Assembly: GCA_017473955.1 (NCBI GenBank) | Contig: JAFUIK010000048.1 | Span: forward strand, 1 to 34,730 | DNA length: 34,730 bases | Direction of reading: 5' to 3' | Source: Ruminococcus sp. | Lineage (GTDB): Bacteria; Bacillota; Clostridia; Oscillospirales; Acutalibacteraceae | In this document: positions 1 to 29,931 of the stretch, one piece after another | Position numbering within the stretch: the stretch's first letter is position 1 | Layout of the letters: each line of letters starts with the position of its first letter | Made by a program: the position numbers and the translations under genes | The notes under the pieces: model-generated | The model's input: only the letters and a program-made list of their open reading frames with translations | Database searches by the model: none | Told to the model about the DNA's origin: nothing

Positions 1-1161
1 ATTTCCGACAGCTATAGCATTATATGCTGTTTTTGATGGTACGACTCCCAAAGAGCCTGCATTACTAGTTGTTAAAATTAAATGAACATTATGTTGAACG
101 GCTACATGATCATACCATTTAGCGGTATCGCTATAGGTGTTATAGTTTATCGTTCCATCGTAAGGATAAGAAAATGAGCAGTTAATGGCTGTAACACCAT
201 ACCCTAGTAAATCCTCAACAGCACCTTTTATATCGCCTTCTTTTGATACAGTGGTATAACGCAAGCCTGCCTCTGGTATTGCTCCTAAAAAATCGTTCCT
301 GTTAGAAACCATCAAACCACAAACTAAATCTCCATGAGAAGACGTTTCAAAAGTTCCTTGTTTTATAATTACAACATCATCACAGTTAATTCTTTCAGGT
401 GTGAGTATGGATTCAGCTTCTATTACTCCAACATTTAAACCTAAACCTGTCAATCCAAAAACATCTCTTCCTGTAGATAATCCTGTAACACTATAAAAAG
501 TATCGTCTGGTTTATACTCTTGTGTTTCGTTATCTATAGTACAAATATTACTCTCCTCTAAGAGTAATTCGTTGTAAGGATTAACAAAATAAATCTCATC
601 AACGTTTTGTAACTCGGATACTTCGAAGATTTCTTCTTTTGATAACTCTAACTCTACATTAGGAGCATACTTAGAAACATAAACTTTTTCTATACTTGTA
701 CTATCCAACGCATCAGTGACTTTATTTATCATATTTCCATTATGTTTTTTATATTCGTCTTTATAAACTTCTCGTTTTCTTTCACTTATGTATTGGAAAT
801 CCTCTTGAGTTATATCTTTGTAGTATTCTTTAGCATACGACAAATAGTCTTTTGTATAATTCATAGGTATTTCACAGACTTCCCCAAATAACAGTTCCTC
901 AGATTTTTGATAAACATCTGCATTTTTCTTTCCCTTGTATGTTTCATATAGTTTATCTTTAACCAGTTCTTTATCGACATCATCAAACCATATTGACACA
1001 GTTATTTTCTCATTATCGTCAATTTCGTTCAACTTTGCTACTAGTCCCTCATCTAGCTTGTTCGATGCATAACTGTTATCTAAAGCAAATGTTGGTGCTA
1101 TAGATATACAAATAATCACTATCACCAAAAACAATGAGAATACAGCGTTATACTTTTTCAT
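1..1161 (-). CDS. Secreted S8 (subtilase)-like serine peptidase, C-terminus cut off by window edge
   Basis: Partial: 387 codons are read from the ATG at 1161 and the frame is open to base 1. AAGGGG sits about 8 bases before the ATG. The first ~26 residues form a signal peptide (MKKYN, then a hydrophobic run, then TFALD). Residues ~30-200 look like a pro-region rich in Lys and Glu. The peptidase domain begins near residue 230 with LNVGVIEAES, at the place where subtilases carry the catalytic Asp. SSHGDLVCG follows, matching the catalytic-His block, then TTSNAG, matching the oxyanion Asn. The visible part ends in AYNAIAVGN, which normally precedes the catalytic Ser by roughly 40-70 residues, so the Ser lies outside the window. 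The acid residue is Glu rather than Asp. It probably acts outside the cell on proteins. The family call is firm; activity and substrate are unknown. Confidence 0.8.
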   Translation of the reverse strand, partial: MKKYNAVFSLFLVIVIICISIAPTFALDNSYASNKLDEGLVAKLNEIDDNEKITVSIWFDDVDKELVKDKLYETYKGKKNADVYQKSEELLFGEVCEIPMNYTKDYLSYAKEYYKDITQEDFQYISERKREVYKDEYKKHNGNMINKVTDALDSTSIEKVYVSKYAPNVELELSKEEIFEVSELQNVDEIYFVNPYNELLLEESNICTIDNETQEYKPDDTFYSVTGLSTGRDVFGLTGLGLNVGVIEAESILTPERINCDDVVIIKQGTFETSSHGDLVCGLMVSNRNDFLGAIPEAGLRYTTVSKEGDIKGAVEDLLGYGVTAINCSFSYPYDGTINYNTYSDTAKWYDHVAVQHNVHLILTTSNAGSLGVVPSKTAYNAIAVGN

Positions 1162-1184
1162 AAAATCAGCCCCTTCTAAGTAGA

Positions 1185-1231
1185 ATAAAAACAAAAAAGC
1201 TTTGTTAAATGAGTGCTTTAGTATTTAACAA
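1185..1231 (-). terminator. Attenuator-like hairpin and U-run in the leader of the S8 peptidase gene
   Basis: On the minus strand a perfect 9-bp stem (TTGTTAAAT/ATTTAACAA, 1202-1231) is followed by AGC and a U-rich run (1185-1199). It lies only ~25 bases before the peptidase RBS. It could terminate transcription early, or it may be chance in AT-rich DNA. A possible -10 (TAAAAT) sits just upstream near 1257-1262 on the minus strand, with no convincing -35. Confidence 0.35.
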
Positions 1232-1342
1232 TTGTTTCCATTTATTACACTTTAATTTTAGCATAACAGGCAAGCTGAATCTATTGACGATTTTTACTAA
1301 ATCAATAAGCTTTGTTTAGCTATTATAACAAACGCAAAAACA

Positions 1343-1374
1343 CACAAAAATCCCCACCGCAAAAGCGATGGGGA
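1343..1374 (-). terminator. Rho-independent terminator of the NhaC-type carrier
   Basis: Minus-strand stem TCCCCATCGC/GCGGTGGGGA (one G-T pair) with a TTTT loop, followed by a U-rich run. It lies 18 bases after the carrier's stop codon. Confidence 0.85.
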
Positions 1375-1391
1375 TAAGCTGTGATATATAT

Positions 1392-3071
1392 TTATTGTGC
1401 CTTGCTGTAGTCCTTGTTTTTGGTAATCGCCTTGATAACAAAGAGAGTAGCAACAGTTAAAACCACACCGATTGGAAGCACGATGTACCAGCTCTTTACA
1501 AAACCTGCTAAGACGTAGCAGACAAATGAAATACCTGCAACTGTAATAGCGTACGGAATCTGAGTTGATACGTGGTTTAAATGGTCGCACTGAGCACCTG
1601 CTGATGACATAATTGTAGTATCAGAGATTGGTGAGCAGTGGTCACCACAAACTGCACCTGCAAGACAAGCTGACATTGAGATAATCATCAGCGGGTTGCT
1701 TGGGTCTGCAGCAAAGAGGTATGTAACGATTGGGATAAGAATACCGAATGTACCCCATGATGTACCTGTAGCAAAAGCGAGTACACAAGCTACTAAGAAG
1801 ATAATAGCAGGCAAGAAGTTCTGCAGTCCTGCAGCGGCATTATTCATAAGGTCGCCAACATAGTACTTAGCACCGAGTAGGCCTGTCATATTCTTAAGTG
1901 AAGTAGCGAATGTAAGGATAAGGATAGCAGGTACCATAGCGATGAAGCCCTTTGGAACAGCGTCCATAGTTTCCTTGAATGTAACTACCTTTCTCATAAT
2001 GAGATATGCCATAGAAACAACAAGTGCGATTAAACCGCCCCATGGCAGACCAACTGTAGCATCAGTGTTAGCGAAAGCGTCAACAAATGGAACGCCGTCT
2101 AAGATACCGCCGTTGTAAACAAGAGCGAATATAGAAATAACGATAAGGATAACTACAGGTAAGATAAGGTCAATAACCTTGCCTCTTGGGTTTTCTACGG
2201 CTGCTTCGCCTTCCTGCTTTTCACCGCAGAAGAGGTCTCCGTATTCTCTTGCTCTGTACTCGTGCATAGCCATCTTACCGTAGTCAAAGCCCATAAATGC
2301 GATAGCAATGATGAATACGAAAGTTAAGAGTGAGTAGAAGTTGTACGGAATAGCCGCGATAAACAGGTCAAGACCCTTTCCGTCCTCAGCGTAGGAAGCA
2401 ACAGCAGCCGCCCAAGATGAGATAGGAGCAATCATACATACAGGAGCCGCAGTAGCGTCGATGATGTATGCAAGTTTAGAGCGTGAAATCTTGTGAGCAT
2501 CAGTAACAGGACGCATTACCGAACCAACTGTTAAGCAGTTGAAATAGTCGTCGATGAAGATTAAAACACCGAGTACGAATGTAGCAAGCATTGCACCGAC
2601 CTTGGTTTTGATATGCTTAGCCGCCCACTTACCGAAAGCCGCAGAACCGCCTGACTTGTTAACCAAAGCTACGAGTATACCAAGCTCGACTAGGAAGATG
2701 AAAATACCTGCTGTATCGCTAACCGCAGGGATAATACCATCGTTGATAACCGTGTCCATAGTTCCAAGGAAAGAAAACTTTGAGTACAAAAGACCGCCTG
2801 TAACGATACCGATGAAAAGTGAGGAGTAAACCTCTTTAGTGATGAGAGCAAGACCGATAGCAATAACCGGTGGCAGTAAAGCCCAAAGTGTGCCCTGAAC
2901 AGCACCCTCGCCGGCACAGGTTTCGCAAGCTTCACCGTCAACTAAGCCTGTTGCGTGACAGTCCATACAGTTTACTGTGCCAAGGTAACCGCCCGATACT
3001 GCACCGAAAACGAGCAGACCTACGATAACAACAGCCGCAACAGCAAGAACTATCTTGTTTGTTTTTGACAT
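1392..3071 (-). CDS. NhaC-family Na+/H+ antiporter-type carrier, probable lysine transporter (LysW-like)
   Basis: 559 aa integral membrane protein of the NhaC family with many hydrophobic helices. FIDDYFNCLTVGS (about residues 172-184) and the SPISDTT block after GDHC near residue 480 are typical of the family. Plain NhaC proteins exchange Na+ and H+. The gene sits directly behind a lysine riboswitch, and NhaC members controlled by this switch have been assigned as lysine transporters (LysW), so lysine uptake is the better guess. An odd feature lies between the first two helices: four cysteines (C35, C38, C49, C52) in CMDC...CETCAGEG, resembling half of a DnaJ zinc centre. It is monocistronic, with its own promoter upstream and terminator downstream. 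The start has the RBS AAGGGGG just upstream. Family is certain; substrate is inferred from regulation. Confidence 0.88.
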   Translation of the reverse strand: MSKTNKIVLAVAAVVIVGLLVFGAVSGGYLGTVNCMDCHATGLVDGEACETCAGEGAVQGTLWALLPPVIAIGLALITKEVYSSLFIGIVTGGLLYSKFSFLGTMDTVINDGIIPAVSDTAGIFIFLVELGILVALVNKSGGSAAFGKWAAKHIKTKVGAMLATFVLGVLIFIDDYFNCLTVGSVMRPVTDAHKISRSKLAYIIDATAAPVCMIAPISSWAAAVASYAEDGKGLDLFIAAIPYNFYSLLTFVFIIAIAFMGFDYGKMAMHEYRAREYGDLFCGEKQEGEAAVENPRGKVIDLILPVVILIVISIFALVYNGGILDGVPFVDAFANTDATVGLPWGGLIALVVSMAYLIMRKVVTFKETMDAVPKGFIAMVPAILILTFATSLKNMTGLLGAKYYVGDLMNNAAAGLQNFLPAIIFLVACVLAFATGTSWGTFGILIPIVTYLFAADPSNPLMIISMSACLAGAVCGDHCSPISDTTIMSSAGAQCDHLNHVSTQIPYAITVAGISFVCYVLAGFVKSWYIVLPIGVVLTVATLFVIKAITKNKDYSKAQ

Positions 3072-3100
3072 TTTATGTCCCCCTTAATATTTTTATAAAA

Positions 3101-3127
3101 CAAAAACCGTGGCATAAGTGCCACGGT
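3101..3127 (-). terminator. Riboswitch-controlled attenuator terminator
   Basis: Minus-strand stem ACCGTGGCA/TGCCACGGT with a 4-nt loop, followed by TTTTTG. It is the expression platform of the lysine riboswitch and stands ~30 bases before the carrier start codon. Lysine binding would be expected to favour this terminator. Confidence 0.88.
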
Positions 3128-3303
3128 CAAAAGTTCAACCCAAATAGCACTCCACCAAAAAACTGGTGACAGTGTGATACATATTCTGCATCACCCCAGC
3201 CCTGTAAGCAACGGAATCAAAACAGGACTTCGGCAGTGATTCCTTTCATACACACCAAAATTCCGTAAAATGTGTGTACTACTCTTAAGCACTGCACCTC
3301 TAT
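3128..3303 (-). promoter_or_regulatory. Lysine riboswitch (L-box)
   Basis: Read on the minus strand, the leader carries the conserved L-box blocks in order: AGAGGTGC, then AAGAGTA, a variable hairpin, GAAAGG, CTGCCGAAG, a hairpin closed by CTGGGG, CTGTCACC, and finally GGTGGAGTGCTA. These are the joining regions that build the lysine pocket. A terminator hairpin follows immediately. Lysine excess should switch off the downstream carrier. Confidence 0.93.
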
Positions 3304-3319
3304 TCTTGTTTATACAGTG

Positions 3320-3347
3320 ATTATAACAAAAATCGTCGTTTCGTCAA
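3320..3347 (-). promoter_or_regulatory. Sigma-A-type promoter of the lysine riboswitch/carrier transcript
   Basis: Minus strand TTGACG (3342-3347), 16-base spacer, TATAAT (3320-3325). The start point falls just before the first L-box block. Confidence 0.8.
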
Positions 3348-3493
3348 CCTTTTCGACAAAATTGTTACCATATATGAAGAAATTTTATGCTATTTTTTGG
3401 GAGATTGTTATTCTAACGGATACATTAAAACCTTTTATACTGTCAAAAACTTAAAGGCTGAGCCGTAGTTAGTAATGAGGTGTTATTGTAAGC

Positions 3494-5107
3494 TTACTTA
3501 TAGCTTCTAAACTCTTCTATAAGCGAATTGATTTGCTCGGTGAATTTCTTTAAATCCTTGTTTGGTATACCGTCTAAATCTTTCGCCGCACTTTGGAGTC
3601 GTCGTGTACTTTCAAGCAGGTTGTGATAGAGCACATTGCTCTTAGAGCTTTGCTCAAAGGTCTTTCGCTCAATTCGGATACCCTTTGTGATGTTGATAAA
3701 CTCGCCTGTTTTAAGGTCAAACTCCGTTCCGCTGAAAGGAGCAAAAGCATCGTAACCCAAGGTTTTGAGCTCGCTAACAAAGTTGTCAGCCGCCGCCTCG
3801 TCGCCATGGTTAACAAAAACTTTCTGCGGATTATTTTGTACACCGGACAGCCACTTTATAAGTCCGTTTTTATCAGCGTGACCGCTAACTCCCTGAAGCG
3901 TGCAAATCTCAGCGTTAACGGCGATTTCGTCGCCAAAAAGTCGCACAGACTGTGCACCGTCGTGAATAAGTCTGCCCAGTGTGCCGTTAGCTTGATAGCC
4001 TACAAACAGCACCGTGCATTCCTTACGCCAGAGATTATATTTTAGATGGTGGCAAACTCGACCGGCCTCGCACATACCGCTTGCCGAAATGATGACTTTC
4101 GGTGTTTGGTCAGAGTTTAGCTTCATTGACTCACTTGTTGAAATGTACGTGTGAAGATTAGGGAAAAGTAGCGGATTGTTGCCGTTTCTCATAACCTCAA
4201 GGATTTCATCGTCAAGACAATCCATATCGCACTGCTGATAGATGCTTGTTGCTTCATTTGCAAGCGGAGAGTCAACATAAACAGGGAAGTTGCCGACTTT
4301 ATCTTCAATCATCTTCGAGTTTTTAATCTCGCGTATGAAATACAGCATCTCCTGTGTTCTACCAACAGCGAATGACGGAATAATCAGGTTACCGCCACGG
4401 GATAGTGTGCGTTCAATGTGTGAAGCCAAAGCGTTTATTGAATCAGCTCTGCTTTCATCGTGAAGCCTGTCGCCGTATGTCGATTCAATCACAACGTAGT
4501 CAGCACTGTCAACGGTTGACGGGTCTTTGATGATAGGCTGATTTGTGTTGCCCACATCGCCCGAGAACAAAATTTTCTTTGTAACTCCGTCTTCTTTTAG
4601 CCATAGCTCAATGCACGCACTGCCTAAAAGATGTCCGACATCAGTAAAACGCACAGCGAGATTTTCGCTAAGCGGTATGATTTTTGAGTATTCGCATCTT
4701 CGAAACAATTTGCACACTTCGTCTGCATCAGTTAAGGTGTACAGCGGTTCAACAAGATTTTTGCCTGCACGCTTTTTCTTTCTGTTTTTAAATTTAGCCT
4801 CACTCTCTTGAATGTGAGCACAATCTCTGAGCATTATGTTACACAAATTTGCGGTTTCGTTAGTACACAAAATGTCGCCTTTAAAACCGTTTTTGTAAAG
4901 CAAAGGCAGATGACCCGAGTGGTCAACGTGAGCGTGGGTTAAAAACACAAGGTCTATTTCGTTTTCCGATACAGGCAAAGGTGCGTTTTCAAAAACGTTG
5001 AAGCCTTGCTCCATACCGCAGTCAACAAGAATTTTGTGAGGACCGACTTCAAGGTAAGTACAGCTACCCGTTACCTCGTGAGCCGCACCGATAAACATAA
5101 TTTTCAT
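3494..5107 (-). CDS. MBL-fold / beta-CASP RNA-processing nuclease
   Basis: 537 aa. The metallo-beta-lactamase motif HAHVDHSG (H58, H60, D62, H63) binds two zinc ions. Further marks are DVGHLLGSA near residue 157, FSGDVG, ESTYGDR, PSFAVGRTQEM, ISASGMCEAGR and SGHADKNG near residue 410. The last four belong to the beta-CASP and RNA-specificity domains found in bacterial YSH1/CPSF73-like enzymes. Such proteins cut or trim RNA in the cytoplasm; the cellular substrate cannot be read from sequence. The start codon follows AAAGGGTGAT. It lies 26 bases after the uridine-kinase-like gene, so the two are probably cotranscribed. Length is normal for the family and no catalytic residue is missing. Confidence 0.88.
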   Translation of the reverse strand: MKIMFIGAAHEVTGSCTYLEVGPHKILVDCGMEQGFNVFENAPLPVSENEIDLVFLTHAHVDHSGHLPLLYKNGFKGDILCTNETANLCNIMLRDCAHIQESEAKFKNRKKKRAGKNLVEPLYTLTDADEVCKLFRRCEYSKIIPLSENLAVRFTDVGHLLGSACIELWLKEDGVTKKILFSGDVGNTNQPIIKDPSTVDSADYVVIESTYGDRLHDESRADSINALASHIERTLSRGGNLIIPSFAVGRTQEMLYFIREIKNSKMIEDKVGNFPVYVDSPLANEATSIYQQCDMDCLDDEILEVMRNGNNPLLFPNLHTYISTSESMKLNSDQTPKVIISASGMCEAGRVCHHLKYNLWRKECTVLFVGYQANGTLGRLIHDGAQSVRLFGDEIAVNAEICTLQGVSGHADKNGLIKWLSGVQNNPQKVFVNHGDEAAADNFVSELKTLGYDAFAPFSGTEFDLKTGEFINITKGIRIERKTFEQSSKSNVLYHNLLESTRRLQSAAKDLDGIPNKDLKKFTEQINSLIEEFRSYK

Positions 5108-5133
5108 AGTATCACCCTTTATGTGTAAATGTA

Positions 5134-6054
5134 TCAGTATTTTAAGGAGCTTCCGCCGATAAACTCACGCATCAGCGAGTTTGTTGGCACAAGCGAAGTG
5201 TCCAGTGGAATTGCAAGCTCTATAATTTTACTTAAAAGCTCTACCTGAGGAGTTTGTGGTAAAGTCTTCAGTGACTCGGATAAAAGTGTGTTATAAATGT
5301 TGATTTCGTAAGGGATAATCGTGTCGATTGAGTAGTTGCACCTATTCATAAACGGACGGATGAACTCGTCCTCTCCTTCGTTAACGCTATGAAACATATT
5401 GAATGTATCAAGCGGGTCGCGATCTCTGGTTTCCTGATCTCTTATCATTCTGCGAGCCAAACGGATGATCTTTGAACGAAGCTCTGTGTCGTCTGTTACA
5501 AACTGACTGCGAATACTCACGTAAAATCTCGCACATTCTTCATCAGGCACAGTAATAACATTCGGGTTTAACGCGTGTGTGCCCTCAAAAATGATAATTT
5601 CGCCCTCCTTACGCTTGAGTGTCCAGCCTGAAAACTCACGCTTGCAGGTTGTGAAGTTGTATTTCGGAATGTCAACTGAAACACCGTCCAAAATGCATCT
5701 TATCTGCATATTGAGGTAGTTTTTATCCAGTCGGTCAGGCGACTCCAAGTCTAGCTTGCCGTCTTTAGACAGCTTAAACTCCTCATCATTAAGCTCGCGA
5801 AAATAGTTGTCCAGCGAAATAGTGTGTGCTTCGTGCCCCCAACTGTCAAGTAAAGCTTCGAGCTTCATTGCGGTGGTGGTTTTACCGCTACCCGATGGCC
5901 CTGAAATTAGCACAATTGGAGCTATGTTAGCATTGTCGGCAATACTTCTTGCGATGCTTTCAAGCTGTGTGTTATACTCGCTTTCGCAAAACTCAATGAA
6001 TTTTTGCGGGTTATTTTTGATTTGATAGTTTATGTCATCTAAAAAATATTTCAT
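5134..6054 (-). CDS. Uridine kinase / phosphoribulokinase-like P-loop kinase
   Basis: 306 aa. The Walker A loop GPSGSGKTT (residues 52-60) is followed by SLDNYFR, a lid-like PDRLD, the pair PKYNF...CKREFSGW and EGTHALN, all in the order seen in uridine kinases. Uridine kinase phosphorylates uridine or cytidine for pyrimidine salvage. This protein is longer than classic Udk (~210 aa), with an N-terminal extension of about 45 residues and a longer C-terminus, as in the uridine-kinase-like family of Firmicutes, so the exact substrate is uncertain. I chose the ATG at 6054, which has AGAGGTGAT at good spacing; the frame stays open to 6159 but that extension crosses a terminator and has no RBS. It probably shares a transcript with the beta-CASP nuclease. 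Confidence 0.82.
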   Translation of the reverse strand: MKYFLDDINYQIKNNPQKFIEFCESEYNTQLESIARSIADNANIAPIVLISGPSGSGKTTTAMKLEALLDSWGHEAHTISLDNYFRELNDEEFKLSKDGKLDLESPDRLDKNYLNMQIRCILDGVSVDIPKYNFTTCKREFSGWTLKRKEGEIIIFEGTHALNPNVITVPDEECARFYVSIRSQFVTDDTELRSKIIRLARRMIRDQETRDRDPLDTFNMFHSVNEGEDEFIRPFMNRCNYSIDTIIPYEINIYNTLLSESLKTLPQTPQVELLSKIIELAIPLDTSLVPTNSLMREFIGGSSLKY

Positions 6055-6111
6055 AAAAATCACCTCTTGTATTCTTATTCTACCACACGTTGATGGAAAA
6101 ATTATATATAA

Positions 6112-6149
6112 AATGTAAAAAAATAACAGCGAAAATTGTATTTCGCTGT
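6112..6149 (-). terminator. Terminator of the formyltransferase-like gene
   Basis: Minus-strand 9-bp stem ACAGCGAAA/TTTCGCTGT with a 6-nt loop, followed by TA and seven U. It separates the formyltransferase-like gene from the kinase gene, which therefore should have its own promoter. Confidence 0.8.
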
Positions 6150-6161
6150 CAAATTGCACAG

Positions 6162-6938
6162 TTATCCCTTTTTGTTACATTCGATGTAACCGCCCTGTAT
6201 TTTAAATTGTTCGTCAAAGTTTTCGCCCTTTACTGCTGTGCAGTTTAAGAGTATATGTTCATTTTCTCCGTCATTATAAATAGTATGAAAGCCGTAAAAT
6301 GCCCGTAGTATCCTGTCTGCATACTCAAATTCGGTGTCTTTTGTGATGATGTAATTTCGCTCGTCTGGGGCAGTTTCGTATTCGCCCTCGCCTTGAGCAT
6401 AAGCATTATCGTAGTAATAGTCAAAATTTTGTAGCAAGTCCTTTACCATATTCGGGAGCAGTGCGTAAATTTTCTCCATAAATGTGTTAAGGTTCTCGGT
6501 CTTGTCAAGCTCAAAAGACTTTTGCATCAAAATTTCGCCAGTGTCAAACTGTTCTTCCATTTTATGAAAGGTTACTCCGCTTTCCTTATCGTTTCTTAAA
6601 ATGGAGAGAGGCATCGGCCACGCACCTCTGCCTTTTGGCAAAAGGGATGGGTGTACGTTAATCATTTTAAAGCCTTTTAGTATAGGCATACGGTAGTAAT
6701 AAGCCGCACAGAACAAAGCCTCAACGCCGTTTGCTTTAAGCTCTTCTAAATCAGAAAGGGTGATTTTTTCATAAGTAATCGGAATATTGTGATTTTGTGC
6801 AAATTGCGTCACCTTTGTGTTAAATTCAAACACTCCGTCAACCTCGCAGGAGAAGATTTTCACAATTTCACAACCGTTTTGGTATAAACTTTCAAGCATA
6901 GGATAAAACAAATCAAAGCCTGCATACGCAATTTTCAT
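6162..6938 (-). CDS. Formyltransferase-family enzyme (GART/Fmt N-terminal fold)
   Basis: 258 aa. INVHPSLLPKGRG (about residues 93-105) and GVTFHKMEEQFDTGEIL (about 121-137) carry the Asn, His and Asp used by formyltetrahydrofolate-dependent transferases. The protein is shorter than methionyl-tRNA formyltransferase (~310 aa), and its C-terminal ~80 residues do not look like the tRNA-binding domain. The fold resembles enzymes that formylate sugars, amines or a purine precursor. The acceptor cannot be told from sequence, and no sugar-nucleotide genes are adjacent. The start at 6938 has the strong RBS AAGGAGGGG. The gene ends in its own terminator and begins back-to-back with the SCIFF gene. Confidence 0.75.
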   Translation of the reverse strand: MKIAYAGFDLFYPMLESLYQNGCEIVKIFSCEVDGVFEFNTKVTQFAQNHNIPITYEKITLSDLEELKANGVEALFCAAYYYRMPILKGFKMINVHPSLLPKGRGAWPMPLSILRNDKESGVTFHKMEEQFDTGEILMQKSFELDKTENLNTFMEKIYALLPNMVKDLLQNFDYYYDNAYAQGEGEYETAPDERNYIITKDTEFEYADRILRAFYGFHTIYNDGENEHILLNCTAVKGENFDEQFKIQGGYIECNKKG

Positions 6939-10228: not shown

Positions 10229-10591
10229 ATGAAAGAATACAGACTTGGTGCATTGGAATCCCGTTTTGCGGATATCGTATGGGAGAACGCTCCGATTAAA
10301 ACTCCTGAGCTTGTTAAGATTTGTGAGGAGGAGTTTAACTGGAAACGTACCACTACTTACACAGTTTTGAAAAGACTGTCTAACGGCGGACTTTTCAAGC
10401 TTGAGAATGGTACAGTTCACGCTTTGCTTTCTCGCGACGAGTTTTACTCAAAGCAGAGCAAGCACTATGTAAAGGAGAGCTTTGGCGGTTCGCTCCCTGC
10501 GTTTTTATCTGCGTTTACATCAAACCGCAAATTATCAACTGACGAGGTTAATGAGATCAAAAAGATGATCGAAAATTTCGAGGAGAAATAA
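10229..10591 (+). CDS. BlaI/MecI-family transcriptional repressor
   Basis: 120 aa winged-helix protein. LESRFADIVWENAPIKTPEL and KRTTTYTVLKRLSNGGLF (about residues 38-55) are the recognition region typical of BlaI, MecI and CopY repressors. Such repressors bind a dyad as dimers and are removed when the partner M56 protease is activated. I start at the ATG at 10229, which has TGAGGTG at good spacing; a GTG nine bases earlier overlaps that RBS. The M56 gene follows after a single base, so the pair is translationally coupled. No beta-lactamase gene is near, so the regulon is probably a cell-surface response. Confidence 0.88.
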   Translation: MKEYRLGALESRFADIVWENAPIKTPELVKICEEEFNWKRTTTYTVLKRLSNGGLFKLENGTVHALLSRDEFYSKQSKHYVKESFGGSLPAFLSAFTSNRKLSTDEVNEIKKMIENFEEK

Positions 10592-22596: not shown

Positions 22597-23226
22597 ATGA
22601 AGTTTTTAAGTGGATTGATTTCCAATATTGCCCAAATTACTTTGATTGTGATTTTGTTTCCGTTAATTGCTTGGATGTTCGATTTCAGCAACCTTTTAAC
22701 CTTTTTAGGAAGCATTCCGATTTTTGATACATGGATCGATGTGCTTTACAGGGCTAATAATTTGGATTTAGATAATCTTGCGTATGTTTATTTAAGCTCT
22801 GTTTTCGAAACGTTAGTTGTTGGAATATGTACCCATGTTTTTATTAAAATTCACAAAATACTCGGTGCTTACGGCTTGCCTATTTTCGCTACCTTTTTAG
22901 GGGTTACGTTGGCTTGTGTTTTGTTCAGAGCACTGTCTTTTGCGGGAGCTTTTGAGCTGGTGCTTTATATAGTGATTTTAGCCGTCGGTATTTTTCTGAT
23001 GATTAAAGGTGTATTCAGGTCAGTAAAACTGTTTTCACTAAAGGATTTTTTCGAGTTAATTGTTGAATGTGTTTTCTCCGTTATGATTTGCGGTTATATT
23101 ACAGCACTCTCTTTGTTCTCAACCGGGTTAATTGGTGTGTCTGTATTGATGTTAATTACTTTGTTAACTATTGTAATGGCAATTGTTACTTGGTTGGTAA
23201 CAAAAAACGATTCTAAAAAAACTTAG
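22597..23226 (+). CDS. Polytopic membrane protein of the VirD4-like operon, unknown family
   Basis: 209 aa with about six hydrophobic stretches (roughly residues 10-30, 58-78, 86-108, 110-130, 145-168, 175-198) and a short basic tail NDSKKT. Between the first two is an external or cytoplasmic loop carrying DTWIDVLYRANNLDLDN. I recognise no family. The ATG at 22597 follows GGGGTAGGA; a GTG-type extension of six codons is less likely. It is the first gene after the promoter and is followed after 53 bases by the AAA+-like gene. Since the downstream VirD4-like ATPase lacks membrane helices of its own, this protein may be its membrane anchor or channel. That role is inferred from position only. 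Confidence 0.7.
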   Translation: MKFLSGLISNIAQITLIVILFPLIAWMFDFSNLLTFLGSIPIFDTWIDVLYRANNLDLDNLAYVYLSSVFETLVVGICTHVFIKIHKILGAYGLPIFATFLGVTLACVLFRALSFAGAFELVLYIVILAVGIFLMIKGVFRSVKLFSLKDFFELIVECVFSVMICGYITALSLFSTGLIGVSVLMLITLLTIVMAIVTWLVTKNDSKKT

Positions 23227-23279
23227 GTTGAGTTTTCATTTTTCAAAATATATACATAATCAAAAAGGAAGTGTGGTAT

Positions 23280-24134
23280 ATGAATACATATTATGAACAG
23301 TTGATGGCATTCAAAGGAGCTGATGAGCTGACAAAACTCATCAACAGGTGGGAGGTTTTGTCCAGTAACATAAGCAAACGTTCCTTTGACGCACCAATAA
23401 TTCTGCCAGATATTTTTATGTATACTTGGCCCGGATACGGAAACACAAAGTTGCTTTCCTTGCTTTCTGAGTATCTTAACTCAAAAGAAAATTTGATGAG
23501 CTTTTACGGTGACGTTAAGTTTTTTGAATTCAAGTTAGAATACTGTAAGCCTGATGATGAGTTCAAGGAGCTGTATCGCTTAATAGATACCACTGAGGTT
23601 GCAGCGGGCTTTCGTAATGAATTCAAGGGCATAATCCGTATTAACGTGAACGATTGGGTAGGTCATCATAAGGAAAAGCATTTCCGTGATTTTCTGCAGT
23701 TTTTGCAACTTAACACTTCATATTGGCTTGTTATTTTAACGCTTTCCAACACCCGTGAAAACGACAAAACAAGGGCGATGGAAGGTATGGTTAGCATGTA
23801 CCTGAGAATTGAAAAGGTTACATTAAATATGCCTGATAACGAAGAGCTGGTGGATTTTGCATCCACATATTTGGCTAAGTATGGCTTCGAACTGGACGAT
23901 AGTGCCAGAAAAGTGCTTGTTGCATCTGTTGACGCTTTGAGAAACAACGAGTATTTTTACGGCTTGAATACAATCAAGGACTTGTGTAGCGATATTGTGT
24001 ATTCGTTGTTTTCAAGCTCCAATAAGGTGAGCAATGTGATTACCGCAGATATGATAAGCGGTTTTTCTGCTGACAGCGAGTATATTAAGCGAACTATGGT
24101 TAAAATCGAAAAAACTGTCACACTTGGCTTTTGA
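23280..24134 (+). CDS. Degenerate AAA+-like protein
   Basis: 284 aa. WPGYGNTKLLSLLSEYL (about residues 44-60) looks like a P-loop in which the Lys before Thr is misplaced (GYGNTK rather than GxGKT). GIIRINVNDW stands where Walker B would be but lacks the Asp-Glu pair. VILTLSNTREN resembles a sensor-1 Asn, and residues ~195-260 form a helical lid like that of AAA+ proteins. It is probably an inactive AAA+ fold that binds a partner rather than hydrolysing ATP. The ATG at 23280 is chosen over the GTG at 23271, which overlaps the RBS AAAAAGGAA. The VirD4-like gene follows after 24 bases. The AAA+ assignment is by pattern only and moderate. Confidence 0.6.
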   Translation: MNTYYEQLMAFKGADELTKLINRWEVLSSNISKRSFDAPIILPDIFMYTWPGYGNTKLLSLLSEYLNSKENLMSFYGDVKFFEFKLEYCKPDDEFKELYRLIDTTEVAAGFRNEFKGIIRINVNDWVGHHKEKHFRDFLQFLQLNTSYWLVILTLSNTRENDKTRAMEGMVSMYLRIEKVTLNMPDNEELVDFASTYLAKYGFELDDSARKVLVASVDALRNNEYFYGLNTIKDLCSDIVYSLFSSSNKVSNVITADMISGFSADSEYIKRTMVKIEKTVTLGF

Positions 24135-24158
24135 TATTGTGGAAGTGGGGAAAAGATT

Positions 24159-25622
24159 ATGGAATACAGATTAGGTAAATATCAGAATATAAATCAGGAA
24201 ACACGATGGGCAACAATTGAAGAAATCAAATGTGCTACTACTCATGTTAATTTGCATAGCGATACATATCCCGGTGCAGGTCTGCCGATTATGTCAGACG
24301 GACACGAAGCACAGGTTGATTCAACCGACACTCATACCTTAATTTTTGGTTCTACAGGCTCGAAAAAAACACGTTTGTTCTGTATGCCTATGCTGAACTT
24401 TTTTATTAAAGCAGGAGAGTCGTTTGTTACTACTGACCCTAAAGGTGAGCTTTATGCCAGAACATCGGGTATGGCTAAAGCAAACGGATACAATCTTGTG
24501 GTGCTGAATTTCAGAGACATTGGAAAGGGTGATATGTGGAACCCTATTTCTGTCCCGTATAATATGTATCATAACGGCAAAAAAGACGAAGCAGTGTCAA
24601 TGCTCAACGACTTTATCAGGACTATTGCCGAGCCTCAGTTTGAAAACACAAAGGATATGTTTTGGCCTGAAATGGCATCATCGTTGGCACTTGCAAACCT
24701 TTTGCTTCTTATGGAGGCAGCGACAGCTGAAGAGGCTAACGTTGCCAGTCTTTCTGCTTTGTGTTCAAATGCGTCAGTTGAGAAACTCAATACATTGAGC
24801 AAACAGATGAGAATGGATACCATTGCCGGTATGAATTATAAGAACGTGTTTGTAAGCCCTGAAAAAACGTTGCAAAGTATTATGGCATCGCTTTATGCTA
24901 TGATTCGTATTTTCAACACACAGAAAAATTTGACTGATATGCTTTCAACTAACACAATTGATGTTACTCGTTTTGGAAAGGAGAAAACAGCAGTTTATCT
25001 TATTATTCCTGACGAAAAAAGCACATATCATTTTCTGGTTACAACCTTTTTAAAGCAAGCATATGAGATTTTAATTGCTGAAGCACAGAAAGAAAAAGAC
25101 AGACAGCTTCCTGTAAGAGTGAACTTTGTTCTTGATGAGTTTTGCAATATTCCAAAGATTCCGGATATGGCATCAATGATTTCAGCCGCAAGAAGTCGTA
25201 ATATGAGATACTTTCTTGTGGCTCAGAGCTTGCACCAGCTCAAGGGACGATATAGTGAAGACGCTGATACTATTAAAGGTAACTGTGACAACTGGGTGTT
25301 CCTTACTTCTAAAGAGCTTGATTTACTTAACGAGATAAGCTCACTTTGTGGTTCTTACTACACTACAGGAGGGCTCGAACGTAAGTTGATATCTGTTTCA
25401 GAGCTACAGCGATTAGACAAGAGTAAGGGCGAAGCGTTGATAATGCACGGGCGTCAGTATCCGATAATCACGGAAATTGCTGATATAGATTCTTATCCGA
25501 TGTTTAAAGGTTATGAGCCTATTCCTTTAGAGGAATTTCAAATGAAAGAAGCTCAGATGTTTGATGTGAAAGAGTTCTACGAGGACGTTATCACAGAGAA
25601 GCGACCTTTACCGTTCGCCTGA
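24159..25622 (+). CDS. VirD4/TraG-like (type IV coupling protein) ATPase, no membrane domain
   Basis: 487 aa. LIFGSTGSKKTR (residues 61-72) is the Walker A loop, with Lys69 in place of the usual last Gly (GSTGSGKT). TTDPKGELY, WNPIS and VNFVLDEFCNIPKIPDM (Walker B, D326-E327) follow, then ARSRNMRYFLVAQSLHQLKGRY and NCDNWVFLTSKE. These are the signature blocks of VirD4/TraG coupling ATPases, closest in feel to the VirD4-like CD1115 family of Firmicute conjugative elements. Such ATPases deliver DNA or protein to a type IV secretion channel. This one begins only ~60 residues before Walker A and has no N-terminal membrane helices. No relaxase, VirB4 or other transfer gene is nearby. RBS GTGGGGA. 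It is flanked by two genes at 24-base spacing. Confidence 0.86.
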   Translation: MEYRLGKYQNINQETRWATIEEIKCATTHVNLHSDTYPGAGLPIMSDGHEAQVDSTDTHTLIFGSTGSKKTRLFCMPMLNFFIKAGESFVTTDPKGELYARTSGMAKANGYNLVVLNFRDIGKGDMWNPISVPYNMYHNGKKDEAVSMLNDFIRTIAEPQFENTKDMFWPEMASSLALANLLLLMEAATAEEANVASLSALCSNASVEKLNTLSKQMRMDTIAGMNYKNVFVSPEKTLQSIMASLYAMIRIFNTQKNLTDMLSTNTIDVTRFGKEKTAVYLIIPDEKSTYHFLVTTFLKQAYEILIAEAQKEKDRQLPVRVNFVLDEFCNIPKIPDMASMISAARSRNMRYFLVAQSLHQLKGRYSEDADTIKGNCDNWVFLTSKELDLLNEISSLCGSYYTTGGLERKLISVSELQRLDKSKGEALIMHGRQYPIITEIADIDSYPMFKGYEPIPLEEFQMKEAQMFDVKEFYEDVITEKRPLPFA

Positions 25623-25646
25623 TAGCTGAAAAGGAGCTAAATTGCG

Positions 25647-26504
25647 ATGATTAATGAAAAAGGCGAAAGAATTGTTAGCGTAGAAGAAGAAAAGAATCTT
25701 GATTTCATTTTAGCAGAAATTAAGTTTATGACGAAAACCTTTCGCATACATAAAACCGATAACACCGCGTGGGATGCTGCGAAAAAAATGAAAGAATATC
25801 TGTCTTGTAAAGGCAATATTAAAAGCATAGAAGAGTGGCTTGCCGAACTGGAGACGTACTCCTTAAACGCTCAAAGCGAAAGCTTTGTCTGGGAGCTTGT
25901 ATATATACGCAGGAGTATGTCTGATATATACAGATTAAGCACAGGATATACAAAAGATTGTGCTGAGAGTAAATTAATTTCAGCTAAGCTCTTTGAAAGA
26001 ATTTGTAAGATAAATCCCTCACATCACAATTTCCTCTGTAGGGTCAGAGAATATCTTTCCGCAATAGAGCTTTTCAGGAAGACGAAAGTAAAGGGTATGG
26101 AAAAAGCGAAGGTTGATGAAATAATGCTCTATACAGTAAGCTTATTTGAAAACCTCGAAAACGATGGGGGAATTGCTATTTGCTTAACAGGCAGTAAGCT
26201 GTATGCGGATAAGTTCTTTTACTATGATTCTGAAAAAAGTAGCGAGGGCGAGTGTGCTGAAACATTGGCTAAGCTGATTTTTTATTTGCGTAATACCTAT
26301 AGTTACTTCGAGGATGACGAAGACTTAGAGCTGCTTGCAAATGTGTACCTGATATATATGACTTACGAGCAGTTTTCTTATAACGAGAAAGAGCAGGAGC
26401 TTAATGAGCTGATTGGTTGGGTTGAAAAGCTAGTGGATTGTGGATATAATCGCTTCAGAAAAGTATTGGAGGAGTTGAAAACAGCTCGAGATAAATTGCT
26501 ATAA
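25647..26504 (+). CDS. Helical protein of the VirD4-like operon, unknown family
   Basis: 285 aa, predicted almost entirely helical, with no signal peptide or membrane helix. Helix pairs around residues 60-130 and 185-280 suggest TPR- or HEAT-like packing, though no clear repeat consensus is visible. Acidic residues predominate (SYFEDDEDLELLANVY; YNEKEQELNELIGW). It starts 24 bases after the VirD4-like gene with AAGGAG, and the operon's strong terminator follows. A scaffold or substrate-adaptor role beside the coupling ATPase is possible. I do not recognise it. Confidence 0.68.
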   Translation: MINEKGERIVSVEEEKNLDFILAEIKFMTKTFRIHKTDNTAWDAAKKMKEYLSCKGNIKSIEEWLAELETYSLNAQSESFVWELVYIRRSMSDIYRLSTGYTKDCAESKLISAKLFERICKINPSHHNFLCRVREYLSAIELFRKTKVKGMEKAKVDEIMLYTVSLFENLENDGGIAICLTGSKLYADKFFYYDSEKSSEGECAETLAKLIFYLRNTYSYFEDDEDLELLANVYLIYMTYEQFSYNEKEQELNELIGWVEKLVDCGYNRFRKVLEELKTARDKLL

Positions 26505-26511
26505 TAACTAA

Positions 26512-26563
26512 AAGCGTTGTATTCGGGAATGTGGTTACCGAATACAACGCTTCTGTTTTTTGA
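26512..26563. terminator. Bidirectional terminator between convergent operons
   Basis: Perfect 15-bp stem AAGCGTTGTATTCGG/CCGAATACAACGCTT with an 11-nt loop. It is followed by CTGTTTTTTG on the plus strand and TTTAGTTATTAT on the minus strand, so it can serve both converging operons. Confidence 0.88.
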
Positions 26564-26580: not shown

Positions 26581-27009
26581 TTAATCACAAAGGGATTGTT
26601 TGTCAGTGTGGACAAAACCATCGTTGCCCATAGCACCGAATACTCCTTGAATAGTAAACGGAGTTATGGACTGAAAAACCAGTTTATTGCTATTTACTGG
26701 TTTGCCGTTTTTTGAAACCGATAAGGTAATGTGTGGCGTTTCAACTTTTTCGAGCAAAGTGTGTAGAGCCTCAGGATAGTCCTTGAACTTAACTTCAAAA
26801 GCTTCGTTTTCTGAGTCGCAACCATATCCTATGCATTCCACGGTTATCGAACTACCTAGCATATCATATGGCACAGTCTTGGGATGGTACCATATTGTGA
26901 CGTGTGGGGATGTTATTGTTCTGAAAAGTCGGCTTTCTCTTTGAGCTTTTGCCAGTTTTTGAATAAGCTCATAGTCAAAAAAACACCCGATGTATTGTAT
27001 TTTTTTCAT
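26581..27009 (-). CDS. 2H phosphoesterase-like protein (LigT / RNA-repair type)
   Basis: 142 aa. Two HxT motifs, PHVTIWY (H36, T38) and PHITLSV (H93, T95), lie in the duplicated arrangement of the 2H phosphoesterase superfamily. Members open 2',3'-cyclic phosphates, hydrolyse cyclic nucleotides, or act in RNA repair. The protein is shorter than LigT/ThpR (~180 aa) and close to the stand-alone RNA-ligase-like 2H group. RBS AAGGTG lies 5 bases before the ATG. It follows a membrane-protein gene on the same strand after 66 bases, and both probably share a transcript ending at the bidirectional terminator. Substrate is unknown. Confidence 0.78.
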   Translation of the reverse strand: MKKIQYIGCFFDYELIQKLAKAQRESRLFRTITSPHVTIWYHPKTVPYDMLGSSITVECIGYGCDSENEAFEVKFKDYPEALHTLLEKVETPHITLSVSKNGKPVNSNKLVFQSITPFTIQGVFGAMGNDGFVHTDKQSLCD

Positions 27010-27075
27010 ATAACACCTTATTTATTAAAATTTGTAATTCCTTGATTTGGAGTTACTGATTCTATTTTAACCTAT

Positions 27076-28413
27076 TCAACGTTTGTTTTTTAGGGAAAAC
27101 AGTCGGAATAATATAGCGACGCTTAAAATTATTACTATTGAGCCAATGGTTAGCTGTATAATCTTAGACCAAAGTGGCGGAATAAGCCAACCTAGGTTTG
27201 CGGTAATACCTAACGCATCTGTTATAGCTGAAAATATAGTCAGTAGCGATAATGCAGTAAGAGCTGTGTTTATGTTGTGGTCACGTTTTTGACGCTGCTC
27301 TTCGTTAACTTGACGTTGTATTTCTGCAAGACGTGACAAAGGCTCCTGTACATCTGCGAACATTTCCTTGATAGAAAAGGATTCCATTACCTTTTCGTAG
27401 AATCTTTGATACTGAGGAACCTCAGAAATTCTTGAAAACAGATATTTAGTGTTGAACTCATAAAGTCGACGCTTGTAATTTTCCAAAAGATTTAAATCAT
27501 CGTCGATATCAATAGAAATTTTCGTCAGGAACAGGTAAAGCATATACTTTTGATGTAATAGCAAAATGTATGTAAAGAGATAATGATTTTGCACATTATG
27601 TTGAAATGTATTTTCTATAAATTGCCTGTTTTTATCGCACCTGTTTATAATACAGACAGCAGCGGACGGAGATATTCCCCATATAGTGTTGCTGTTTGCG
27701 ACGTAATTTACACTATCTTTTTCAAGGCAATTGCTATCATACGTAAAATGGTCATTGTAACACCACTTTAAGTGAAACAGCTCTTCGTTGTAGTTTTCTT
27801 TTTTAGGCAGATCTATATATGTAAAGAAGTTTGCTCGTTCATTTTTTGTAGATGCATAAAAGAAAAAGTCGAGCGAATATATATCTGTCAAGTTACCTAA
27901 TATGCTTTTTGAAAGCTCGATAAAGCTGTGAGAAACAAAATCTCCGTTATCTGTCTTTACTCTTATGTGTTCAACATCGATTTTTCTTAAATAATATTGT
28001 GCCGCGGCAATATATAACGGGTCATTGTTTTCAAATTGTAGCTGAAAAGCCATAATGCAAATTGAAGTGTTAAATGAGAAAAGCTGAACATCTGATATTG
28101 TAAAGTCAAATGTAGTGGTTATATCGTTAAACTTCTTAGGGGCAGTTTGATAACAGCGATTGTTAAGATATATGTCGGTGAAATCAGACACCGATTCACT
28201 AAGTCGGTAGTGAAACAGGTTTTTATTGCTTTTATACTCATTTACCAAACGGTCCGAAACATATTTGTGTAAATAACGAATCTCATCGTTAACGGGCATC
28301 CACATACAGTTTGCAGAAAGGTCGTTATTGAATTTAATAAAATCTTTTTCCTGTTTGATAGAAAAAGGAATAAAAATATAGGAAAAGTTTGATAAATAAC
28401 CCGCTTTTTCCAT
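27076..28413 (-). CDS. Protein with large N-terminal domain and two C-terminal membrane helices, unknown
   Basis: 445 aa from the ATG at 28413, which has AAGGAGC 8 bases upstream. The frame stays open 63 codons further to a GTG at 28602, but without an RBS, so I treat that as leader. Residues 1-365 are soluble and contain no motif I know. Residues ~350-375 (RLAEIQRQVNEEQRQKRDHN) are a coiled-coil-like helix leading into two membrane helices (about 378-400 and 412-436), ending in LKNKR. This tail arrangement recalls CorA-type Mg2+ channels, but the GMN motif is absent (NLGW instead). Known CorA-like proteins include effectors of nucleotide-signalling defence systems. Membership here is only a resemblance. 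The 2H phosphoesterase gene lies downstream. Confidence 0.62.
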   Translation of the reverse strand: MEKAGYLSNFSYIFIPFSIKQEKDFIKFNNDLSANCMWMPVNDEIRYLHKYVSDRLVNEYKSNKNLFHYRLSESVSDFTDIYLNNRCYQTAPKKFNDITTTFDFTISDVQLFSFNTSICIMAFQLQFENNDPLYIAAAQYYLRKIDVEHIRVKTDNGDFVSHSFIELSKSILGNLTDIYSLDFFFYASTKNERANFFTYIDLPKKENYNEELFHLKWCYNDHFTYDSNCLEKDSVNYVANSNTIWGISPSAAVCIINRCDKNRQFIENTFQHNVQNHYLFTYILLLHQKYMLYLFLTKISIDIDDDLNLLENYKRRLYEFNTKYLFSRISEVPQYQRFYEKVMESFSIKEMFADVQEPLSRLAEIQRQVNEEQRQKRDHNINTALTALSLLTIFSAITDALGITANLGWLIPPLWSKIIQLTIGSIVIILSVAILFRLFSLKNKR

Positions 28414-28628
28414 AACATACGCTCCTTGTTCAATATGTAGCGAGCCAAGCATAGTTGCATCAGATTTTGGGGATGCTTTTCGCTCACTTGTTGTAAAAAT
28501 ACCCCTGTACTTGTCAGGGTTGACTGCGTTTGTGTCTAAAATGGTCAGAATGAATAGAACAAAAGCACTATAATTAAGGCTGGTTCTAGTACATCTACTC
28601 ACTCTAAACTACAAAATCAACTGTATTC

Positions 28629-29226: not shown

Positions 29227-29931
29227 ATGCAAACAACATTTTTAGATGAGGTATTTAATAGTGAATATGAGCTTGTGAGAGTGTTAAAAAACACTGATGA
29301 AAAGCAAATTTGTGTTTTCGAGCATAAGAAACTCAAAAAGCGACTCGTTAAACGCTCTGTACAAGGTGTCGGAGATATATATTTCGTTTTGCGAAGCGTT
29401 TTTCACGAAAACATTTCGAACATCTACGAGGTGTATAAGACCGAAAACTCAGTTGTCGTTTTGGAAGAGTATATCGACGGTCAGACTATCAGTGAGTATT
29501 TGGAGGACGGACTTTATACTGTAAGCGGTGTGAAAGCAGTTGTGTCAAAGCTGTGTGATGCTCTAAGTTTCCTACATTCGCACAGCATTATCCACAAGGA
29601 TATTAAACCCGAGAATGTTATGATTGACAGTAGCGGTAATGTGAAACTCATTGACTTTGACGCTGCTCGTATTTATAAGTATCAACAGAGTGAAGATACT
29701 CGCATTTTAGGAACAACAGGCTATGCTGCACCTGAACAGTACGGACTTAACCAAACTGACGAGAGAACCGACATTTACGCGTTGGGTGTGCTGATGAATG
29801 TTATGCTTACAGGTGAGCCACCTGAGAGGAAACTTCATAACGGTAAGCTGAAAAAGGTGATAGTAAAATGCACCCAGACTATTCCTGATAATCGCTATCA
29901 GAGTGTAGCCGAACTAAAAAGAAATTTATGA
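29227..29931 (+). CDS. Serine/threonine protein kinase, kinase domain only
   Basis: 234 aa Hanks-type kinase. HSIIHKDIKPENVMI (about residues 115-129) is the catalytic loop, with Lys in place of the usual Arg of HRD. LIDFDAAR is the Mg-binding segment with DFD instead of DFG. GTTGYAAPEQYG is the activation-loop end. The N-lobe lacks a recognisable glycine-rich loop (VLKNTDEKQICVFEHKKLKK), and the conserved Lys is probably in LVKRS. There is no membrane helix or PASTA sensor, so it is soluble and smaller than PrkC-type kinases. The RBS is CGGAG. It sits back-to-back with an HTH regulator that is a likely partner. Confidence 0.88.
   Translation: MQTTFLDEVFNSEYELVRVLKNTDEKQICVFEHKKLKKRLVKRSVQGVGDIYFVLRSVFHENISNIYEVYKTENSVVVLEEYIDGQTISEYLEDGLYTVSGVKAVVSKLCDALSFLHSHSIIHKDIKPENVMIDSSGNVKLIDFDAARIYKYQQSEDTRILGTTGYAAPEQYGLNQTDERTDIYALGVLMNVMLTGEPPERKLHNGKLKKVIVKCTQTIPDNRYQSVAELKRNL

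Follow-up and report, generated by a model that had tools for sequence, protein, structure and literature searches.

Coupling ATPases are the gate of type IV secretion, and among the closest described relatives of the protein considered here are those of the CD1115 family of VirD4 proteins (NF045973; PF02534). We analyzed a stretch of 34,730 nucleotides from Ruminococcus sp. (contig JAFUIK010000048.1, assembly GCA_017473955.1), hereafter called the window. In it, a VirD4-type ATPase (g3) is encoded between an AAA+ protein (g2) and an all-helical protein (g4), with a membrane protein gene (g1) upstream. The g3 protein shares the ATPase family, the Walker B residues DEF, and the TraG-D_C region with the CD1115-family proteins. 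However, it differs from them in having no hydrophobic anchor, a lysine in the P-loop, g2 as a partner, and no VirB4-type or relaxase neighbors. We are confident that the module to which g3 belongs recurs outside conjugation, that its P-loop has changed, and that its AAA+ partner is Clp-like.

Other described systems share single features with this module. ClpXP, HslUV, and CbbX resemble it in the fold of g2, in the [IL]GF tail of g2 (a candidate ClpP-docking motif), and in the ClpP gene found near the ATPase in 6 of the 86 loci assembled below. However, the g2 of the window lacks an intact Walker A, and the second ring is VirD4-like. Furthermore, ClpX docks ClpP through an internal IGF loop, whereas the GF motif of g2 is a tail. 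HerA defense systems pair HerA with SIR2 or DUF4297. The module is like them in that a ring ATPase of the HerA/FtsK/VirD4 group stands beside effector-type genes in some loci, but g3 is of the VirD4 type (DUF87 only at E 0.084) and pairs with an AAA+ protein, and the effectors are not the same. No SIR2, DUF4297, or nuclease partner was found among the seven window proteins scanned. In the case of MADS, g3 matched the PADLOC model mad8 (Mad8) at 4.8e-10, but the other six proteins scanned matched no mad model. DUF4062-type proteins share an operon with g2-g3 in two loci (L086 by Pfam, L084 by BLAST) and with a longer VirD4 in three (L092 to L094, by BLAST). A preprint (PMC13174449) reports that DUF4062 is a TIR-like NADase that acts against phages. 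However, Swarozyc is described there as a portal-activated NADase, and the main text never mentions VirD4, TraG, or ClpP. Record listings of the open-licence PMC literature contained no description of a stand-alone VirD4 system. Judged by comparative genomics and the open-licence literature, the module lacks a defining feature of each known kind tested.

The g3 gene (24159 to 25622, + strand) encodes a soluble VirD4/CD1115-type ATPase of 487 residues. A preliminary description, made from the letters of the window, had called it a VirD4/TraG-like ATPase without membrane helices, and both points held. Pfam T4SS-DNA_transf matched at 4.1e-40 and TraG-D_C at 5.8e-24, and the NCBIfam model conju_CD1115 (NF045973) scored 289.9 bits, above its cut-off of 250. 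Because this curated profile accepts g3, profile annotation would label it a conjugation gene. Its solved relatives are DotL, TrwB, and Cag5. A simple Kyte-Doolittle scan found no hydrophobic segment in g3; the stand-alone relatives had 0 or 1, versus 2 in each of four conjugative VirD4s from Bacilli.

The same description listed Walker A and B blocks in g3. The Walker B stands, with the residues DEF at 25134 to 25142 (+ strand), which every correctly framed stand-alone relative retains. However, the Walker A is not canonical. The P-loop at 24348 to 24371 (+ strand) reads GSTGSKKT and not GxxGxGKT, so that Lys replaces the glycine preceding the catalytic Lys. This glycine matters in ordinary P-loops. 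We do not call g3 a dead ATPase, because the Walker B is kept. The stand-alone pattern is GxxGxKK[TS]. Of the 79 stand-alone sequences counted, which leave out L095 (wrong frame) and L087 (gap), 70 had K at position 6; the other nine had G (5), L (2), M (1), or R (1). Without the doubled gene (L013 = L100), K was present in 69 of 78. By contrast, all ten outgroup VirD4s had G. Seven of these ten had adjoining conjugation genes when examined; L010, L011, and L012 were left out of that check. In a FastTree tree, whose support values were not printed, the stand-alone VirD4s were separate from the outgroup ones. The tree leaves out L005, L008, and L009 (fragments) and L030 and L085 (too short), and it includes the misframed L095 row. 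Two stand-alone VirD4s of about 780 residues (L082 and L083) carry the canonical GSTGSGKS, and the g2 of L082 also keeps a canonical P-loop. Because L082 and L083 nest within the lysine clade, the P-loop residue may revert, and these two are possibly natural revertants.

To collect relatives of the module, a species-genome collection was scanned with an alignment of seven relatives. The best 80 of 186 confirmed stretches, the window, and five loci from a survey of the order gave 86 loci. By title, the best 80 stretches came chiefly from Lachnospiraceae, Oscillospiraceae, and Clostridia, and animal guts were the source of many. A g2-coding stretch adjoined g3 in 66 of the 86 loci. This number comes from a tblastn recount, made because the longest-open-reading-frame gene caller had chosen an antisense frame over g2 in L044, L047, L050, and L076. 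The 20 loci without a g2 match include the four conjugative Bacilli loci and three (L058, L085, and L087) that begin at the ATPase; many loci stop at contig ends. A few genomes are present twice (L035 = L023, L088 = L024, L093 = L025, L100 = L013, and L109 = L026), and L028 and L029 are near-identical. A g4 homologue lay 3' of g3 in eight loci, the window included. Recurrent conservation outside conjugative elements, which the preliminary description had set as a test, was thus found for g2-g3, and for g4 in those eight loci. The conserved unit is 23280 to 26504, comprising g2, g3, and, in close relatives, g4. Ten Lachnospiraceae loci (L055, L064, L066, L068, L069, L071, L072, L078, L091, and L097) had two common neighbors of g2-g3, clusters C3 and C5, which by eye are a dynamin-like GTPase and a DeoD-type phosphorylase.

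We then compared these loci with conjugation genes. Four loci of other VirD4 relatives (L111 to L114) served as the control. Their common gene set includes a gene of about 775 residues that matches a gene of the Bacilli loci, which Pfam identifies as a TraG P-loop (VirB4-type) protein. Twenty control-locus genes plus the Bacilli conjugation genes served as BLASTP queries against every gene called in the 86 loci. They matched solely the four Bacilli loci (L106, L107, L108, and L110), and there was no match in the other 82. Together with the pairing of g2 and g3 in 66 loci, this bears out the idea of a coupling-type ATPase outside conjugation with recurrent neighbors. No transfer genes were detected in the window itself, as the preliminary description had it: besides g3, none of the 27 open reading frames scanned with Pfam (from 90 mechanical frames of at least 60 residues) matched a conjugation family. 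In the genome of the window, which is 83% complete, PF19044 had no match and one relaxase was found, on contig C29. Among 72,556 plasmid records, g2 had no match at E <= 1e-3; g3 had four in plasmid records at E <= 1e-30, with 28 to 33% identity. Phage records gave 20 g3 matches at E <= 1e-20, and the ten listed had 26.5 to 28.8% identity. A scan of IMG/VR with six g3 peptide patterns, which detects close relatives only, gave no match. We searched for the outcome that the preliminary description had set as refuting, namely that all of the genes are ordinary components of an integrative conjugative element of which the rest was lost here, and did not find it.

The partner, g2 (23280 to 24134, + strand), is an AAA+ protein of 284 residues with a CbbX/HslU/ClpX-type fold. 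In a Foldseek search its model was closest to the structures of CbbX, HslU, and ClpX, although AAA+ folds resemble one another. Its Walker A is degenerate (PGYGNTK), while GxGK[TS] is intact in some relatives, such as those of L038, L045, L082, L084, L086, L090, and L099. The window g2 ends in KTVTLGF. Of 63 g2-family proteins, 29 had the motif [ILVM]GF in their final 14 residues, versus 9 of 984 other genes (kinship uncorrected). Three of the 29 are g2-like domains fused to a second AAA domain (L038, L045, and L049), each fusion carrying the motif at its own terminus, and two of the nine are the tentative g2 proteins of L100 and L101. The downstream protein of L002/L100 was rejected as a demonstrable g2 homologue (BLASTP not significant, tblastn without a match); it and the L101 protein were kept in the g2 alignment by tail, size, and pairing, and both are tentative. 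Other assignments were also rejected. A clamp-loader delta subunit was suggested by a HolA profile (1.3e-4), and the Bacillus subtilis delta 3zh9 was among the Foldseek matches (TMq 0.33), but the structure search placed CbbX, HslU, and ClpX higher. A Card1 hinge match (0.027) was under the cut-off and was put down to chance. As for the longer VirD4 (L025/L093), an identification of its C-terminal extension with g2 was not supported (hhalign probability 0.2).

A ClpP-like gene lay directly 3' of g3 in L027, L045, L088, L098, and L109, at a gap of -4 to +24, and at position +5 from g3, i.e., four genes further, in L103. The L088 protein matched Pfam CLP_protease at 1.2e-68. A genome search confirmed the ClpP of L027, L088, and L109; the L088 row counts one TGA. 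All six ClpP-like proteins kept the catalytic Ser, His, and Asp; in the alignment the row hk_L116 is misframed. The six loci are scattered over several parts of the VirD4 tree. In the three genomes tested (G236, G300, and G071), the ClpP of the locus was additional to another strong ClpP, and the genome of the window has a strong ClpP match on contig C54. In L039, L041, and L042, g3 is followed instead by TPR- or Sel1-type proteins.

Genes of immune type share the operon of g3 in some lineages. For other loci, 38 neighbors and two self-chosen reference genes, 40 proteins in total, were scanned; the neighbors were hand-picked, and the scan gives no background rate for immune-type genes. Labels such as sigma-like, zinc-finger anti-sigma-like, dynamin-like, DeoD, and Trp are by-eye assignments. 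Besides DUF4062, a Card1-like gene was found in L038, L049, and L090, a TIR-kinase gene in L049, and a RyR/TrkA-like gene in L038, L049, L084, and L090 (the RyR and TrkA_N matches being below the Pfam cut-offs). Card1_endonuc was above its cut-off in L049 and on contig C51 of the window's genome, and below it in L038 and L027. The long operon of L038 encodes Card1-like, sigma-like (Sigma70_r2 0.006), zinc-finger-like, g2-like/AAA, and RyR/TrkA-like proteins. That of L049 encodes Card1-like, g2-like/AAA, RyR/TrkA-like, and TIR-kinase proteins, and that of L090 encodes sigma-like (no Sigma70_r2 match), zinc-finger-like, RyR, and Card1-like proteins. The ClpP locus L027 encodes a 1412-residue protein with kinase and Card1-type endonuclease domains (2018 to 6253, - strand). 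This protein can also be aligned to the RyR/TrkA-like protein of L084.

Similar genes stand elsewhere in the window's own genome. Contig C51 carries homologues of the Card1-like (4.7e-108), RyR/TrkA-like (8.6e-68 to L049), sigma-like (1.3e-38), and zinc-finger-like (4.7e-14) proteins and two YbjN-type proteins. On this contig, at 349 to 4090 of locus L125 (G000:C51), a HerA-type ATPase (DUF87 2.4e-8) precedes an LHH-nuclease protein and a SUKH immunity-type protein; the sigma-like, zinc-finger-like, and YbjN genes lie downstream. Homologues of the genes downstream of the HerA/SUKH set share the operon of g3 in L038. A neighbor of the Card1-like gene, at 10435 to 13911 of L125 (- strand), encodes 1158 residues that combine two AAA domains with an M41 protease domain of the FtsH type. 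Among the 394 genomes of the order, with the window's own excluded, Card1-like genes (E <= 1e-20) co-occurred with a stand-alone VirD4 (E <= 1e-55) in 4 of 8 genomes versus 34 of 385 others (p 0.004), and RyR/TrkA-like genes in 2 of 8 versus 16 of 385 (p 0.047). These are small numbers with kinship uncorrected, and G162 and G304 are of one genus.

We tentatively favor a reading that is possible, if somewhat short of probable: a domesticated coupling ATPase and its Clp-like partner may form a cytosolic, sensor-controlled machine, probably protease-feeding, within a conflict network, and not a remnant of a conjugative element. In this scenario, a coupling ATPase of the VirD4/CD1115 lineage would have been domesticated on the chromosome, losing its anchor and secretion partners and gaining the P-loop lysine. 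It would act in the cytosol with g2, a Clp-family-like AAA+ protein, and with g4, a putative TPR-type sensor or scaffold. The VirD4-like ring and g2 may assemble on a substrate selected via the TPR-like protein, and the assembled complex may pass that substrate to an effector. Our best guess for the effector is ClpP, because of the [IL]GF tail of g2 and the ClpP gene beside the ATPase in some lineages; the tail would bind ClpP in the manner of the ClpX IGF loop. Because the pair shares operons elsewhere with DUF4062, Card1-like, TIR-kinase, and RyR/TrkA-like membrane genes, it probably serves in responding to conflict or stress. The defense role raised in the preliminary description is suggested by neighbors in some lineages. 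The analysis shows that the module exists and is conserved, that conjugation genes are lacking around it, and that its P-loop is changed, along with the predicted folds and the neighbors; complex formation, ClpP docking, substrate transfer, and the defense role we infer. That a conjugation motor became part of a two-ring complex (a VirD4-like ring with the P-loop lysine and the Clp-like AAA+ partner), an alternative sensor-gated unfoldase for ClpP and other immune effectors, seems to us doubtful.

Several observations weigh against this protease-feeding machine. No ClpP gene was detected in 80 of the 86 loci, one of which is the window, and the sixth ClpP locus (L103) has no detected g2. The other five ClpP loci encode a g2-cluster protein, and in four of them (L027, L088, L098, and L109) it lacks the GF tail, which is also absent from the g2 of the Lachnospiraceae clade. 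The ATP site is degenerate in the window g2 and altered in g3, which puts the energy source in doubt. The DUF4062 loci with the longer VirD4 have no detected g2, and many Lachnospiraceae loci adjoin ordinary chromosomal genes. Lastly, type IV secretion substrates are recognized by coupling proteins via C-terminal signals, and the [IL]GF tails could equally be such signals, read by g3.

The main rival is a DNA-handling defense machine, in which a VirD4/HerA-type ring would translocate or survey invading DNA under the control of g2 and g4, with nucleases such as the Card1-like protein as effectors. The VirD4 type of g3, its solved relatives, and the Card1-like genes in three operons and on C51, with their co-occurrence, are consistent with it. 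However, the altered P-loop speaks against an ordinary translocase, the ClpP neighbors and the HslU/ClpX-like fold of g2 indicate protein handling, and nuclease genes are present in few loci. We consider it unlikely. A module with a housekeeping or stress-control task but no part in conflict, established in the chromosome of Lachnospiraceae, would explain the recurrent neighbors there (by eye, a DeoD-type phosphorylase, a dynamin-like GTPase, or Trp enzymes), which also occur in records not labeled as metagenome-assembled genomes (AB2028, NK4A179, XPB1003, and NC2008). Yet the module is patchy elsewhere, a stand-alone VirD4 being present in 9 of the 394 genomes of the order (E <= 1e-55, own genome included), and its partners vary by lineage and include NADase-, TIR-, and nuclease-type genes; such a role is distinctly unlikely. 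Still less probable is a minimal export machine for protein toxins that kept the coupling function, with g1 or the RyR/TrkA-like protein as its membrane part. The ancestry of g3 fits export, as do the HerA-type ATPase, LHH-nuclease, SUKH immunity-type, and two YbjN-like genes of C51, whose later neighbors have homologues in the g3 operon of L038. But g1 is not common to other loci, g3 has no hydrophobic segment, PF19044 is unmatched in the genome (83% complete), and no toxin gene was seen beside g3 in the loci whose proteins were read; the export role put forward in the preliminary description is not supported. A remnant of an integrative conjugative element that lost its other genes is strongly disfavored: g3 exceeds the cut-off of the conjugative CD1115 model and a relaxase lies on C29, but the conjugation-gene queries hit none of the 82 loci, the plasmid records gave no g2 match (E <= 1e-3) and four g3 matches (E <= 1e-30) at 28 to 33% identity, and the frames are intact across species in a separate clade.

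The four co-directional open reading frames of the window were as first reported (22597 to 23226, 23280 to 24134, 24159 to 25622, and 25647 to 26504), with the ATPase flanked on either side by a gap of 24 bases and with 53 bases between g1 and g2. Their description as a four-gene operon stands for the frames but not for the membership of g1. This gene (22597 to 23226, + strand) encodes a polytopic membrane protein of 209 residues with six hydrophobic segments and no family match above cut-off. BLAST found no relative of it among the neighbors within four genes of g3 in other loci, it joined no cluster of neighbor genes, and some loci carry other, unrelated membrane genes at its position. The suggestion that g1 supplies the missing membrane part was therefore not borne out, and g1 is probably outside the conserved unit. 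The g4 gene (25647 to 26504, + strand) encodes an all-helical protein of 285 residues, predicted to be a TPR-like solenoid; a profile comparison with the TPR protein of L039 gave a probability of 7%, and that match was rejected. The strong terminator was confirmed as a hairpin followed by a T run after g4, the likely end of the operon (26512 to 26552, + strand; -23.7 kcal/mol, z -6.0). The promoter claimed for the operon was not: the window had 17 promoter-like sites against 11.5 +/- 3.2 in shuffles, which is chance level. That scan placed no site on the + strand just upstream of g1 and one, with 9 of 12 matches, before g2 (23233 to 23260). Beyond the terminator, 26581 to 28602 (- strand) encodes a CorA-like protein (PADLOC CorA 8e-18) and, beside it, a 141-residue protein with two HxT/S motifs that by eye resemble 2H phosphoesterases (Acb1 only 0.049). 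Together they may make up a stand-alone effector of nucleotide signals and its off-switch; the Cas10 palm had no match in the window's genome. A small Ser/Thr protein kinase (Pkinase 1.2e-39) is encoded near the operon at 29227 to 29931 (+ strand), and kinase genes also lie near g3 relatives in L049 (the TIR-kinase) and L027 (with the Card1-type domain).

The canonical P-loops of L082 and L083 would be useful for biochemistry. If our reading is true, this chromosomal clade shows a transfer motor becoming a cellular machine, with secretion dropped, glycine changed to lysine, a Clp-like partner, and, in places, immune-type genes.

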